Assembly: GCF_003751265.1 (NCBI RefSeq)
Contig: NZ_RJKN01000012.1
Coordinates: forward strand, 1 to 52,024
Length of the DNA stretch: 52,024 bases
Origin: Pseudokineococcus lusitanus
GTDB lineage: Bacteria; Actinomycetota; Actinomycetes; Actinomycetales; Quadrisphaeraceae
Reading direction: 5' to 3'
The notes beneath the pieces are model-generated. The model had not been told where the DNA came from. It ran no database searches and saw only the letters and a list, made by a program, of their open reading frames with translations. Shown here piece after piece: positions 14,524 to 18,325 of the stretch. The position numbers and the translations under genes are program-made. Each line of letters starts with the position of its first letter. Positions within the stretch are counted from its first letter, which is position 1.

Positions 14524-14563
14524 ACGAGGCGCCGCCGGCCCGGACGGGTCGACGGCGCCTCGT
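14524..14563 (-). terminator. Hairpin terminator after surface protein gene 1
   Basis: A perfect 11-bp inverted repeat (14524-14534 with 14553-14563), loop 18 bases, begins 10 bases after the stop at 14573 in the direction of transcription. No T tract. Confidence 0.6.
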
Positions 14564-14572
14564 GGGCGTCGG

Positions 14573-15844
14573 TCAGGCGGGGCTGCGGCGCTGCGTCCGG
14601 ACGACGGCGACGCCCGCCACCGTGCCGAGGGCGAGCAGCCCGCCGCCGAGACCGGCCAGCTGCCCGTCGGAAAGGCCCGGCACGGCAGCGGTCTCGACGC
14701 CCGTGTTGGAGCGCAGGCCCGGGTTCTGACGCGGCGGCGTGGTCGCCGTCGGCGTGGGGACCGGAGCGGCCGTGGCCGTGGGCTCCGGCGTCGGGGCCGG
14801 CTCGACCGCCGCGGCGGCGACCTCCGCCTCGGCGGTGAGGACCACCGGCGCCGTGTCGCCGTAGGCGACGAAGATGACGCCGTAGGAGCCGGCCTCCTCC
14901 TCGGCGGCCAGGGTCACCGACGCCGTGGTGCCGGCGCCCTCGACGAGCGGGAAGCCCACGAGCGGCTCGGCGTCGTCGACGTCCTCCTCGACCGCGGAGC
15001 CGGCCGCGCCCTCGGCGATCTCGGAGAGCGCGGACAGGTCGGCCGAGCCGCTCGCGGCCGCGGCGTCGCCGAGGCCCGCGAGCTCCTCGGCGCCCAGCAC
15101 GTCACCCGGCTCCACGCCGAGCTGCTCGAGCTCGTCGAGGGGGAAGAGGAAGACCCCGAGGTCGTCGAGCGTCTCGACGCCGAGCGAGGGCAGCAGGCCC
15201 TCGGGGGGCAGCGAGACGGTGAAGTCCTCGCCGGCACGCGCCTCGATCGGGTCGTCGTCGAGCTCGCCGTAGAAGGTGAGGGTGGTCTGGACGACGGCGG
15301 GGTCGTCCTCGGCGGCGGGGAAGAGGTCGAGCGCCACGAGCAGGGGGGACGTCGCGTCGAGCAGGTCCACCACGACGCCGTCGACGACGAGGTACGTCTC
15401 GTCGACGTCGGCGAGGAGGTCGTCCTCGAGGGGGATTGTCACCTCGACCGTCGTCACGCCGGCGGCCTCGACGACCTGGACGGCGAGCCCGTCGAGGAAG
15501 GGCTCCGGCAGCACGGGGTCGTCCGCGTACAGGCTCCGGTCGTACTCCTCGGCGTCGACGAGGCCGGCCGTGACCTCGCCGTCCACGGCGGACAGGCCTG
15601 CGGTGAGCTCGATGCTCACCGCGCCAGAGGCGGGCACGGAGACGACGTCGTCGAGCGAGACGAGGCCTTCCTCCTCGTCCTCGGTGAAGGAGAGCGCCGC
15701 GACCTCGGCCACGACGCTGCCCTCCACGGGGTCGAGGACGACCTCGTCGGTCGCGGCGAGGGCCGACGGGGCGGCGAGGACGACGGCGGCGAGGGCGCCG
15801 ACGCCGATCCCGGCGGCGCGACGGCGTGAGGTGCTGCGGGACAT
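14573..15844 (-). CDS. Surface-anchored secreted protein 1, probable sortase substrate
   Basis: 423 residues. The ATG at 15844 has GGGAG a few bases upstream and begins a typical signal peptide (SRRRAAGIGVGALAAVVLA, cleavage near residue 30). The mature protein is very acidic (Asp/Glu-rich beta-type sequence) with no enzyme motif that I recognise. A Pro/Thr-rich, wall-spanning linker (about 345-373) leads to NPGLRSNTGVETAA (374-387), a hydrophobic segment (about 394-416) and an Arg-rich end, the layout of a cell-wall sorting signal. The N-terminus, linker and C-terminus match surface protein 2 (16740-18107), with the sortase gene between them. The core domains have diverged, so the two probably carry different binding functions at the cell surface. 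Confidence 0.75.
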   Translation of the reverse strand: MSRSTSRRRAAGIGVGALAAVVLAAPSALAATDEVVLDPVEGSVVAEVAALSFTEDEEEGLVSLDDVVSVPASGAVSIELTAGLSAVDGEVTAGLVDAEEYDRSLYADDPVLPEPFLDGLAVQVVEAAGVTTVEVTIPLEDDLLADVDETYLVVDGVVVDLLDATSPLLVALDLFPAAEDDPAVVQTTLTFYGELDDDPIEARAGEDFTVSLPPEGLLPSLGVETLDDLGVFLFPLDELEQLGVEPGDVLGAEELAGLGDAAAASGSADLSALSEIAEGAAGSAVEEDVDDAEPLVGFPLVEGAGTTASVTLAAEEEAGSYGVIFVAYGDTAPVVLTAEAEVAAAAVEPAPTPEPTATAAPVPTPTATTPPRQNPGLRSNTGVETAAVPGLSDGQLAGLGGGLLALGTVAGVAVVRTQRRSPA

Positions 15845-15940
15845 GGGTCTCCCAGGCTCGGTGCGGGCGCGCACGGCCCGCGGCACGGCGACCGTAGACG
15901 GCTCACCGCGCCCGCGGGGCGGAAGCGCAACCGATTGCCC

Positions 15941-15967
15941 GGCGCACCCACCGACGGTCGGTGCGCC
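15941..15967 (-). terminator. Hairpin terminator after the sortase gene
   Basis: An 8-bp inverted repeat GGCGCACC/GGTGCGCC (15941-15948 with 15960-15967), loop 11 bases, begins 18 bases after the sortase stop. An alternative inner stem CACCGAC/GTCGGTG is also possible. Confidence 0.55.
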
Positions 15968-15985
15968 CGGCGCGGCCCGCCGGCC

Positions 15986-16738
15986 TCAGCGCGCCCGCGG
16001 CGGGACGAGCTCCGTCGTGACGACGAGGTTCTCGGTCGACCGGCGGCCGTCCTCGCGCTGGAAGCACGTGATGAGCACGAGCCGCCCCGGGGAGACCTCC
16101 CAGACCTCGTCCGCGTCGGGCAGGGCGTCCTTGCCGTACCGCTTCACCTCGGTGACGCGGTAGGTCGCCGTGCCCGACGGCGTCTCGACCTCGACCTCGT
16201 CGCCGACGTCCACGGCGCCGCCCTCGTGGTCCTCGTCGAGGAGCTTGTTGAAGGCGGCGTCGCCGCGGCTCCACGAGTGGGCGGCGATGTAGACGGTGTT
16301 GTCCGGGGCGGCGTCACCCGCGCCGGGCTCGCCGTAGGGGTCGATCCAGTAGGCGTCGCTCATCGTCGGCGGGTTGATGGCCCCGCTGTCGGGCTCGAGC
16401 GCGTGGACCGGGAGGTCGATGCCGACGGCCGGCACGCGGAGCCGGATGTCGGCCTCCGCCTCGAGCGTCGGCACGGCCGTCGGCTGCGGCGCCACCGACG
16501 GGGACGGCGAGGGCTCCGGTGCCGGGGGCTCCGGGGACGGCGAGGGCGACGCCGTGGCCGACGGCACGGGAAGGGGCGCCGCGACGGGCTCGTCGTCGCC
16601 GAGCAGGCCGGCGGCGAGGAGACCGCCGCCGGTGAGCACGAGGGCCCCCGCGACCACGGCCCCGACGACCCGGGCGCGGACGCCCCGAGGGCGCCGCCGA
16701 CCCGCGGTGGGGTCGGCGGCGCCCTCGGAGGGGGTCAC
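15986..16738 (-). CDS. Class F-type sortase
   Basis: 250 residues. The GTG at 16738 is one base after the stop of surface protein 2 (TGA-C-GTG), so the two are translationally coupled. An N-terminal membrane anchor (about 21-47) is followed by a Ser/Pro-rich stalk (about 50-90) and the sortase domain (about 96-250). Catalytic residues are visible: His154 in IAAHSW, Cys225 in VLITCFQ and Arg232/233 in GRRSTENL. The domain opens with RVPAVGIDLPVHAL, as in single-domain actinobacterial sortases of class F. It would cleave the C-terminal signals of the two flanking proteins and join them to the cell wall. No housekeeping-sortase features or pilin genes are present, which suggests a dedicated system. 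Confidence 0.88.
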   Translation of the reverse strand: MTPSEGAADPTAGRRRPRGVRARVVGAVVAGALVLTGGGLLAAGLLGDDEPVAAPLPVPSATASPSPSPEPPAPEPSPSPSVAPQPTAVPTLEAEADIRLRVPAVGIDLPVHALEPDSGAINPPTMSDAYWIDPYGEPGAGDAAPDNTVYIAAHSWSRGDAAFNKLLDEDHEGGAVDVGDEVEVETPSGTATYRVTEVKRYGKDALPDADEVWEVSPGRLVLITCFQREDGRRSTENLVVTTELVPPRAR

Positions 16739-16739
16739 G

Positions 16740-18107
16740 TCAGGCGCGGGCACGCCGCTGCGACCTGAGGGCGACGGCCCCGGCGGCGGAGCCGAGGAGG
16801 AGGAGACCGGCGCCGAGGCCGACGAGCTGCCCGTCGGACAGGCCCGGCGCGGCGGCCGTCTCGACACCCGTGTTGGAGCGCAGGCCCGGGTTCTGGCGGG
16901 CCGGGACGCGGGTGGCGGTGGCGGTCTGGGCCGGCGCCGGCGCGATCACCGTGACGGTGGGCGTGGGCTGGGGCGCGGGGGCCGGGGCGGAGGGCTCGGG
17001 CTCCGGCTCGGGGGCGGGCTCGACCGGGGCGGCCGCGACCTCCGCGAAGGAGATGCCGCCGACGTTGAGGTCGCTGTCGTAAGAGGCGACGTTGACGTAC
17101 AGGAGGTACTCGCCTTCCGGCAGAGCGGTCGAGCTCTGCAGGGTGGCGCCGCGACCGTCCTCGTCGACCTCGGCCTCGAGGTAGTAGGGGTCCTCCTCCT
17201 CGTCCACCACGTCGTCCTGCGCCAGCGTGGCGCCGTCCTCGACCTCGACCGAGTACTCGTCGGCGACGTCGGCGAGGCCGTCCTCGGTCCGACCGGTCGC
17301 CACGGCCGCCGCGAGCGAGTCCGGCGAGGCCGAGAGAGCTCCCGCGGACTCGCGCGTGGAGGCGAACCAGCCGAACTGGCCGTCCTCCCCCGGGATGACC
17401 ATGACGTCGGCGTAGTCGATCCGGCCGAGACCGAGGACGTCGAGCGCGGAGTCGGTCGGGACCTCCAGCCGCACCTGGTCACCGGCTCGGAACGCGACGT
17501 CGTCGAGGTCGAGGAAGACGTCCGCGAAGCCCTCGACCGGGGCCGGGTCCTGGATGAGGAGCTGGCCGAGCTTGCCCGGCTTGAGGTCCACCGTCGTGGT
17601 GGCGACGACGAGGGCGCCCGGGAGGCCGTCCACCTCGAGCCCTGTGACGGTGAGCTCGACCTCGTCGACCTCGACGAGCGCCGGGTCGTCCTGCGGAATC
17701 GTGATGAGGAGGGAGTCGAAGCCGTCGTCGGTCGTGGCGGGGACCACGTCGACGTCGACGTCGAGGGTCGGCAGCTCGCCGTCCTCGGGGATCTCGAAGT
17801 CCGGGTCCTCGTACACGGCGTTGTCGACCAGGGTGACGACCGGGTCGCCCGGGAGCACCGGTGCAGGGAGCAGGAAGGAGACCGCGCCCGACTCGGGGAC
17901 GGGGATGGTGTCGAGGACCGAGGCCTGGTCCTCGTCGGCCGGGCCGCCGTAGACGACGACCTGGACGTCCTCCGGCTCGGCGCCGAGCTCGATGGTCGGC
18001 AGGTCCTCGGCCGGGGCAGCGGCCACCGGAGACGCGACGAGGGCGACGGCGGCCAGGGCGCCGAGCCCGATGCCGGCGGCGCGGCCTCGGGACGTGGTGC
18101 GGGACAT
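16740..18107 (-). CDS. Surface-anchored secreted protein 2, probable sortase substrate
   Basis: 455 residues. The ATG at 18107 follows GAGGGAG with proper spacing. Signal peptide 1-31 (SRGRAAGIGLGALAAVALVA). The mature part is acidic and beta-rich (TLDVDVDVVPAT, LEVDGLPGALVVAT), resembling repeated Ig- or jelly-roll-like strands, with no catalytic motif. The Pro/Glu linker PAPEPEPEPSAPAPAP (about 365-400) would cross the cell wall. It ends with NPGLRSNTGVETAA (406-419), a hydrophobic helix and RSQRRARA. The same 14-residue signal is present in surface protein 1. It is first in the transcript with the sortase. Likely role: ligand binding or adhesion at the surface; no ligand can be inferred. 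Confidence 0.75.
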   Translation of the reverse strand: MSRTTSRGRAAGIGLGALAAVALVASPVAAAPAEDLPTIELGAEPEDVQVVVYGGPADEDQASVLDTIPVPESGAVSFLLPAPVLPGDPVVTLVDNAVYEDPDFEIPEDGELPTLDVDVDVVPATTDDGFDSLLITIPQDDPALVEVDEVELTVTGLEVDGLPGALVVATTTVDLKPGKLGQLLIQDPAPVEGFADVFLDLDDVAFRAGDQVRLEVPTDSALDVLGLGRIDYADVMVIPGEDGQFGWFASTRESAGALSASPDSLAAAVATGRTEDGLADVADEYSVEVEDGATLAQDDVVDEEEDPYYLEAEVDEDGRGATLQSSTALPEGEYLLYVNVASYDSDLNVGGISFAEVAAAPVEPAPEPEPEPSAPAPAPQPTPTVTVIAPAPAQTATATRVPARQNPGLRSNTGVETAAAPGLSDGQLVGLGAGLLLLGSAAGAVALRSQRRARA

Positions 18108-18283
18108 GGGGGCTCCCTCAGGAGTCGGTGCGGGCGGCACCGCCCGCGAGTACCCCGGAAAGTAGTCGGGCGCACCCCGGTCCCGGGAGGGTTCTGCGCA
18201 AGCGCCTGCGCGACGGGGCGAACCGTGACCCGGGCGTGACGGCGCCGTGACCAGCCGTCGCCCGGGCGGGTGACCGGCCGGTC

Positions 18284-18323
18284 CGGTCGGGTGAGGGCGC
18301 CTCACGGCGCCCTCACCCGACCG
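18284..18323 (-). terminator. Very strong hairpin terminator after pdxS
   Basis: A perfect 18-bp inverted repeat (18284-18301 with 18306-18323) with a TCAC loop starts two bases after the pdxS stop. It closes the PIM/pdxS operon and insulates the sortase locus. Confidence 0.85.
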
Positions 18324-18325
18324 GG

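Follow-up and report, generated by a model that had tools for sequence, protein, structure and literature searches.

Which proteins does a sortase serve when the surface proteins encoded on either side of it carry neither of the familiar sorting motifs? This question is raised by a locus of the soil-type actinobacterium Pseudokineococcus lusitanus, in which a divergent sortase gene lies between two genes for surface proteins. The locus is located in the 52,024-nucleotide stretch of contig NZ_RJKN01000012.1 (assembly GCF_003751265.1) that we analyzed, hereafter the window, and its three genes occupy positions 14573-18107 of the minus strand in the order large substrate, sortase, small substrate. 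Here, we report a comparative analysis of this locus, with an emphasis on the C-terminal tag of the two surface proteins and on the relationship of the neighboring enzyme to class F sortases. The locus probably encodes a dedicated protein-anchoring module, in which the sortase would recognize the NPGLRSNTG tag of the flanking proteins, as well as that of a third, unlinked one, and link them to the cell wall. Comparative genomics lends good support to such a predicted system of a sortase with its own tag.

The surface proteins and their C-terminal tag

The three genes and the two copies of the tag are located as follows.

16740..18107, minus strand: larger surface protein (putative substrate 1), 455 amino acids, a paralogue of the smaller protein and a homologue of the substrate in genus relatives
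16860..16892, minus strand: NPGLRSNTGVE motif of substrate 1, residues 406-416
15986..16738, minus strand: divergent sortase, 250 amino acids, with a PF04203 domain, GTG start at 16738 and stop ending at 15986
14573..15844, minus strand: smaller surface protein (putative substrate 2), 423 amino acids, open reading frame
14693..14725, minus strand: NPGLRSNTGVE motif of substrate 2, residues 374-384

The GTG of the sortase gene begins one base past the TGA of the larger substrate gene, in agreement with an earlier note on this DNA, which had described a sortase between two paralogous surface proteins, one base past the larger gene. Read by eye, both surface proteins contain a Sec-type signal peptide and a P/T-rich linker; in the larger one, the signal peptide is followed by a core without assignment, the linker and the C-terminal signal. 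Pfam and NCBIfam gave no assignment above cut-off for either core, and a search of solved structures with a substrate profile gave no match up to E = 0.1.

The two proteins share NPGLRSNTGVETAA (residues 374-387 of the small protein and 406-419 of the large one), followed by a hydrophobic stretch and an Arg-rich tail, so that the anatomy of a sorting signal (motif, hydrophobic helix, basic tail) is present in both. The cores are indeed divergent and the tail segment common, as the note had held: amino acid identity is 32% in the core and 96% in the motif region, and identity at third codon positions is 53% and 79%, respectively. Judged by these values, the likeness of the tags exceeds chance. 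Likewise, a search for the pattern L[PA]xT[GA] found none in either protein, bearing out the statement that LPXTG and LAXTG are absent.

In NCBIfam release 20.0, no model scored above its cut-off for the tail of the larger protein; the GVDTG domain (NF058571) reached 15.1 bits, below its cut-off of 29. Among 18 tails, this domain matched four at E up to 1 (best 0.00019, the lowest of the best values), and TIGR01167 matched two (best 0.0054), the first window tail not being among them.

A third tagged protein of the same genome, with NEGLRSNTGVE in a 422-residue frame, is encoded on contig C4 (241417-241554; G000, L202, L224), and a genome of the same genus, G003, also has a second tagged protein, on its C1. 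A pattern check of 16 kb around these two genes found no sortase. The unlinked extra tagged proteins of both genomes suggest that one enzyme may have several substrates.

Co-occurrence of the tag and one sortase clade

The related loci named here come from a scan of public genomes in which 133 stretches matched, 127 were confirmed, and the best 80 were kept: two from Pseudokineococcus, four from Modestobacter and 74 from Micrococcaceae, with some genomes appearing twice. A widened motif, N-x-G-[YFLMV]-[NR]-x-[QEND]-T-[AGST], applied with no helix filter and widened after the data had been seen, occurs in the open reading frame (ORF) just upstream of the sortase in 78 of the 80 loci, and in 14 of 15 after collapse at 70% sortase identity. 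An earlier count that combined a strict motif with a helix filter had identified 69 loci tagged on the sortase strand, with 70 tagged ORFs upstream and one downstream. Inspection recovered the tag in nine of the 11 misses: two had been lost to the helix filter (L109 and L140), six have Ser or Thr after the key Thr, and the last is L151. A tag is still missing from two loci: L099, whose sequence begins at the end of a contig, and the divergent clade member L094. Among the 78 tags, the residue after Thr is A in 64, G in eight, S in five and T in one, and the fourth motif position is Y in 34, F in 26, L in 16, and V and M in one each. The presumed pentapeptide is RSNTG in the window and mostly NAQTA or NVQTA in Micrococcaceae. 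The earlier note had proposed LRSNTG as the system's own motif; a private tag is supported, but it is longer than a pentapeptide, comprising nine residues of which N, G and T are kept.

The strict motif is rare elsewhere. Only five of 4,873 other ORFs, counted in all six frames of the 80 loci and the window, contain it, each having the look of a substrate: the window pair, those of L109 and L140, each upstream of its own sortase, and a second one in L135. As a control, we read about 1.5 kb on each side (less in three cases) of 30 canonical class F loci; none has the tag, and a loose G[GSA][VAP]xT[GA]-like pattern is present in 17, some in dubious frames.

Closer to the window, NPGLRSNTGVE adjoins related sortases in two genomes of the same genus (G002 and G003), NPGLSSATGVE does so in another genus of the family (G006), and genomes of family f6 show NPGLNVQTG, NQGYNAQTA and similar strings beside related sortases. 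In another order of the class (G647), NDGLRSNTGVE adjoins a sortase with CFQRGGGRNSTENLVVFAES. Compared with the larger window protein, the substrates in two further Pseudokineococcus and four Modestobacter records reach just 24-40% identity, but NPGLRS-x-TG is common to all of them. One Modestobacter locus (L093) has tagged proteins on both sides of the sortase, like the window.

The residues that follow the motif behave differently. VETAAxPGLSDGQL, which the note had called conserved, was rejected as part of the signal, since it is not conserved in relatives: those of the genus and family keep VE alone and Modestobacter lacks even this, the corresponding stretches in relatives being VEGGGVDGGL, VEAATDGSD, VEEPTAPGS and VEDTGTSTT. 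Because the segment beyond VE is lost in relatives, it appears to reflect the paralogy of the two window genes.

Across whole genomes, we used a tail profile (A5) of 18 rows, partly derived from the searched genomes, and counted as motif-reaching any match starting at profile position 1 or 2; matches were listed to E of about 0.012 and at most 23 candidates per genome were scored, so that absence is soft evidence. Among the matches listed, ten of the 297 genomes of the order have motif-reaching tails (G000, G001, G002, G003, G006, G017, G035, G118, G157 and G183), and nine of these ten also encode a clade sortase, defined by at least 80 bits to profile A1, a line drawn after seeing the data. 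In the remaining one, G001, the substrate is cut short by the end of a 3.1-kb contig, at the very side on which a sortase would be expected. The resulting table (both, nine; sortase without listed tag, eight; tag without sortase, one; neither, 279) gives a Fisher p of 5e-12, a value that ignores relatedness and depends on the post hoc 80-bit line. Five of the tagged genomes (G000, G002, G003, G006 and G157) contributed rows to the profile, and the other five are independent. In a sample of 394 genomes of the class, which overlaps that of the order, the tag was found among the matches listed in four (G000, G017, G035 and G647). These are also the four genomes whose sortase exceeds 150 bits against profile A3, the best of the others reaching 79 bits. 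When read, the listed matches starting at positions 4 to 7 (six from the order and one from the class) proved to lack the tag; weaker matches starting at position 8 or later were read in part. Thus, the motif did not prove common in genomes without such sortases, the outcome that would have spoken against the note's proposal of a dedicated sortase-substrate system with its own motif; that proposal gains support from the 78 tagged loci and from the co-occurrence in both samples.

Several observations made along the way concern neighboring tails and cores. An Arthrobacter tagged substrate (L128) has a collagen-like repeat region (PF01391, 32.6 bits, cut-off 27.2), the only above-cut-off match in a core scan of ten relatives. 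In G635 (L279), proteins with RGMSAQTG and RGMAAETG flank a sortase-domain match in the same two-sided layout as in the window. In genus g10, tails with NPVVKTGAY (three) or HPVVKTGAY (two) lie beside a sortase of a neighboring branch (L052, L056, L057, L058 and L059), and no NCBIfam model matched the L052 tail protein at 0.01.

The sortase, its catalytic residues and competing explanations

The window enzyme has an N-terminal membrane segment and a P/S-rich linker, both read by eye, before a PF04203 sortase domain (hmmscan, 47.7-47.8 bits, cut-off 26.6). Its best-scoring named class is class F (NF033748), at 42.7 bits and hence below the cut-off of 166; no class B model was listed for the window protein (E up to 10) or for 32 members (E up to 0.001). 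In a midpoint-rooted tree of 55 sortase rows, 54 of them different (20 of the 32 rows of A3 and 36 others, minus L060), 27 rows including the window enzyme split from 28 rows, comprising canonical class F and the four other sortases of the genome, with support of 100/99; the class E-like sequence from this genome sits on a long branch, and deep branching inside the clade is weakly resolved. HSW is found at the active-site His in all 80 relatives, and canonical class F rows mostly have GHxD. Searches against solved structures added little: profile A1 retrieved only two unrelated chains, profile A3 matched six sortase chains weakly (E 0.44-0.85), and one canonical class F domain had no match at 0.01. 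A PF04203 search of the window genome did not list the window sortase despite its hmmscan score above cut-off, so that absence in such searches is weak evidence. The putative catalytic positions are as follows.

16277..16279, minus strand: catalytic His154 (AAHSW), invariant in 32 aligned rows
16064..16066, minus strand: catalytic Cys225 (LITC), invariant in 32 aligned rows
16028..16030, minus strand: Asn237, in the column of the class E-like sortase's Arg in a sequence alignment

The earlier note had credited the enzyme with all three catalytic residues. His154 and Cys225 hold up, but the Arg could not be established. Downstream of Cys225, no Arg is invariant in the 32-row alignment, and in an alignment of 20 sortases (A6) Asn237 falls in the column that holds the Arg of the class E-like enzyme from this genome; the solved sortase 2xwg, a weak profile match (E = 0.77), likewise pairs Asn with Arg. 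The window sortase does have Arg residues near Asn237, which are not conserved in relatives. In the 80 relatives, the residue preceding this Asn is Lys in 61, Thr in five, Arg and Asp in four each, Gln in three and Glu in two, one relative (L094) not having been parsed. According to a 2026 paper (PMC13257024), all sortases have His-Cys-Arg; the Asn (Ser in two rows) at this column, in the clade as well as in canonical class F, runs contrary to that rule.

A decayed sortase, or one that is not a transpeptidase, for example a hydrolase that releases proteins, would fit both the alignment of Asn237 with the class E-like Arg and the nine of 80 relatives in which the stretch from Cys to Asn holds neither Arg nor Lys. 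We regard this as quite improbable, given that His and Cys are invariant in 32 rows and that the 15 canonical class F rows of A6 also have Asn (Ser in two) in this column, which, as far as sequence alignment can tell, points to a property of the group and not to decay. A little less improbable, albeit still unlikely, is that the tag depends for its anchoring on one of the cell's other sortases, of class E-like or canonical class F type, and the neighboring enzyme does something else. The genome does encode four other sortase-domain proteins, two of which (C1 and C5) exceed the class F cut-off, but the tag and the clade sortase co-occur across genomes, none of the 30 canonical class F loci is tagged, and many of the neighbors of canonical class F enzymes have GG[VA]xTG-like tails instead. 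We give the least credence to the possibility that these are ordinary C-terminally membrane-anchored proteins whose motif is a membrane-proximal linker kept by descent and not a recognition site. The paralogy of the window proteins, with flanking residues beyond the motif common to both, is what descent would leave, yet the motif stays recognizable in Pseudokineococcus, G006, Modestobacter and Micrococcaceae (rows picked for the motif) while the cores and the other parts of the tail change, and in nearly all loci the tagged ORF still precedes the sortase.

Several points weigh against a dedicated anchoring module and have to be set beside this evidence. The constancy of N, G and T in the 78 tags was built in by the search pattern; what was free to vary is the number of the 80 loci with such a tag at all. 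The tagged ORF of L151 stops 18 residues past the motif, without a helix in frame, and the divergent clade members L094 and G228 have no tagged neighbor in reach. Eight of the 17 order genomes with a sortase of at least 80 bits lack a tag among the matches listed: five of genus g10, G060 (whose sortase is at a contig end), G228 and G049. In G006, R and N are replaced by S and A (NPGLSSATG), which leaves room for a loose specificity. Finally, the third catalytic residue is not conserved, and sortase activity cannot be taken for granted.

Gene order, tag anatomy, the sortase domain and the co-occurrence of tag and clade are evident in the sequences themselves. If the enzyme is indeed a tag-specific sortase, the flanking pair and the third, unlinked tagged protein would leave the cell through the Sec route, and their C-terminal helix and Arg tail would keep them in the membrane. 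The sortase would then recognize N-P-G-L-R-S-N-T-G just before the helix and cut between Thr and Gly via a Cys225 thioester; the cut is predicted after Thr because this residue is retained, in contrast to the one that follows it, which may be A, G, S or T. By analogy with established sortase chemistry (PMC5148588), the new C-terminal Thr would be joined to a cell-wall precursor, leaving the proteins wall-linked. Counted back from the cut, the upstream N and G would be residues eight and six, outside the normal pentapeptide.

Flanking features, related systems and significance

Three hairpins accompany the locus.

18283..18324, no strand: perfect hairpin of 19 bp that separates the upstream gene (pdxS-like by eye) from the large substrate
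15937..15971, no strand: 17-bp hairpin (88%), in the gap that separates the sortase from the smaller substrate
14524..14563, no strand: 19-bp hairpin (89%), directly past the smaller substrate

Scans of the locus for T-run terminators and sigma-70 promoters found none, and the hairpins have no T runs; the hairpin at 18283..18324 is therefore not a canonical terminator. Given this hairpin, the larger substrate gene may have its own promoter, and the hairpins around the smaller protein gene suggest that it may be a separate transcription unit.

Among the closest known systems is class F, represented by NF033748 and Cutibacterium acnes SrtF, the latter being reported to recognize LPXTG (PMC7913060 and PMC13257024). 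Class F resembles the window system in being its best named class, in having its gene beside a putative substrate, and in the Asn or Ser of the Arg column; it differs in the sub-cut-off score, the separate clade, and GHxD in most canonical rows where HSW stands here. The GVDTG domain is likewise similar, with a C-terminal Thr-Gly signal, helix and Arg tail and a partner gene adjoining a class F sortase, but the window tail scores below its cut-off, and GVDTG has no N-x-G upstream element. This domain matches five of five neighbors of canonical type (L274, L242, L227, L244 and L064), with scores that exceed the cut-off of 29 in three cases and fall short of it in two. One of them, L242, combines an ice-binding-like domain (NF045625, 107 bits, below the cut-off of 400) with a GVDTG tail and adjoins a canonical class F sortase. 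NVQTG is reportedly among the motifs of the class B sortase of Clostridioides difficile, and Micrococcaceae tags hold NVQTA or NVQTG at the presumed cleavage site; unlike that system, ours lists no class B model, has N and G further upstream, and belongs to another group of organisms. Class E sortases, with LAXTG in the case of Streptomyces coelicolor SrtE1, are also actinobacterial enzymes with a non-LPXTG Thr-Gly signal (PMC5148588), whereas the window substrates have no LAXTG and the class E Arg column is Asn in the window sortase.

A similar anatomy has been described beside class F sortases of Actinoplanes missouriensis. According to a 2026 study (PMC13251363), AMIS_11010 and AMIS_36440 have a signal peptide, a C-terminal helix and a basic tail, lie next to srtF, and contain no known pentapeptide motif; the authors state that they may be substrates and omitted their analysis for want of a known motif. 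In the same study, deletion of all four class F sortases left the phenotype unchanged.

Yet another type of tail, P-T-[ASK]-V-x-A-G followed by a helix and a basic tail, was observed in ten loci (L263, L264, L265, L267, L268, L271, L273, L280, L283 and L284), next to sortases of another group with TCEDWDG or similar after Cys. No such tail was seen in L269 and L282, which have a TCEDWDG-type sortase, and the NCBIfam sorting domains did not match three proteins of this type (L263, L265 and L283).

Our search of the literature on class F sortases, the tag strings and GVDTG, in which subscription journals were thinly covered, found no description of the tag. In general, private tags are nothing new among sortases, and one existing NCBIfam entry, the GVDTG domain, fits the neighbors of canonical class F enzymes; the window system is therefore no new category. 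More tentatively, and at somewhat less than even odds in our judgment, class F-related actinobacterial sortases may have split into clades with private tags, forming a set of orthogonal anchoring enzymes. The clade described here would read nine residues, in which N and G, lying four and two residues ahead of the usual pentapeptide, are obligatory, and would function with Asn for the catalytic Arg; other clades would use GG[VA]xTG, PTAVxAG or similar.

Largely open, to judge from PMC13251363, is the question of which proteins are anchored by class F-type sortases in soil actinobacteria, and for one related clade the tag predicts the substrates from sequence alone. Recognition is directly testable with one peptide, holding QNPGLRSNTGVE. 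Similar enzyme-tag pairs in other actinobacteria suggest a separate protein-anchoring code. If the prediction is true, such an enzyme, with a tag that is both longer and different, would also be a candidate orthogonal ligase for labeling proteins.

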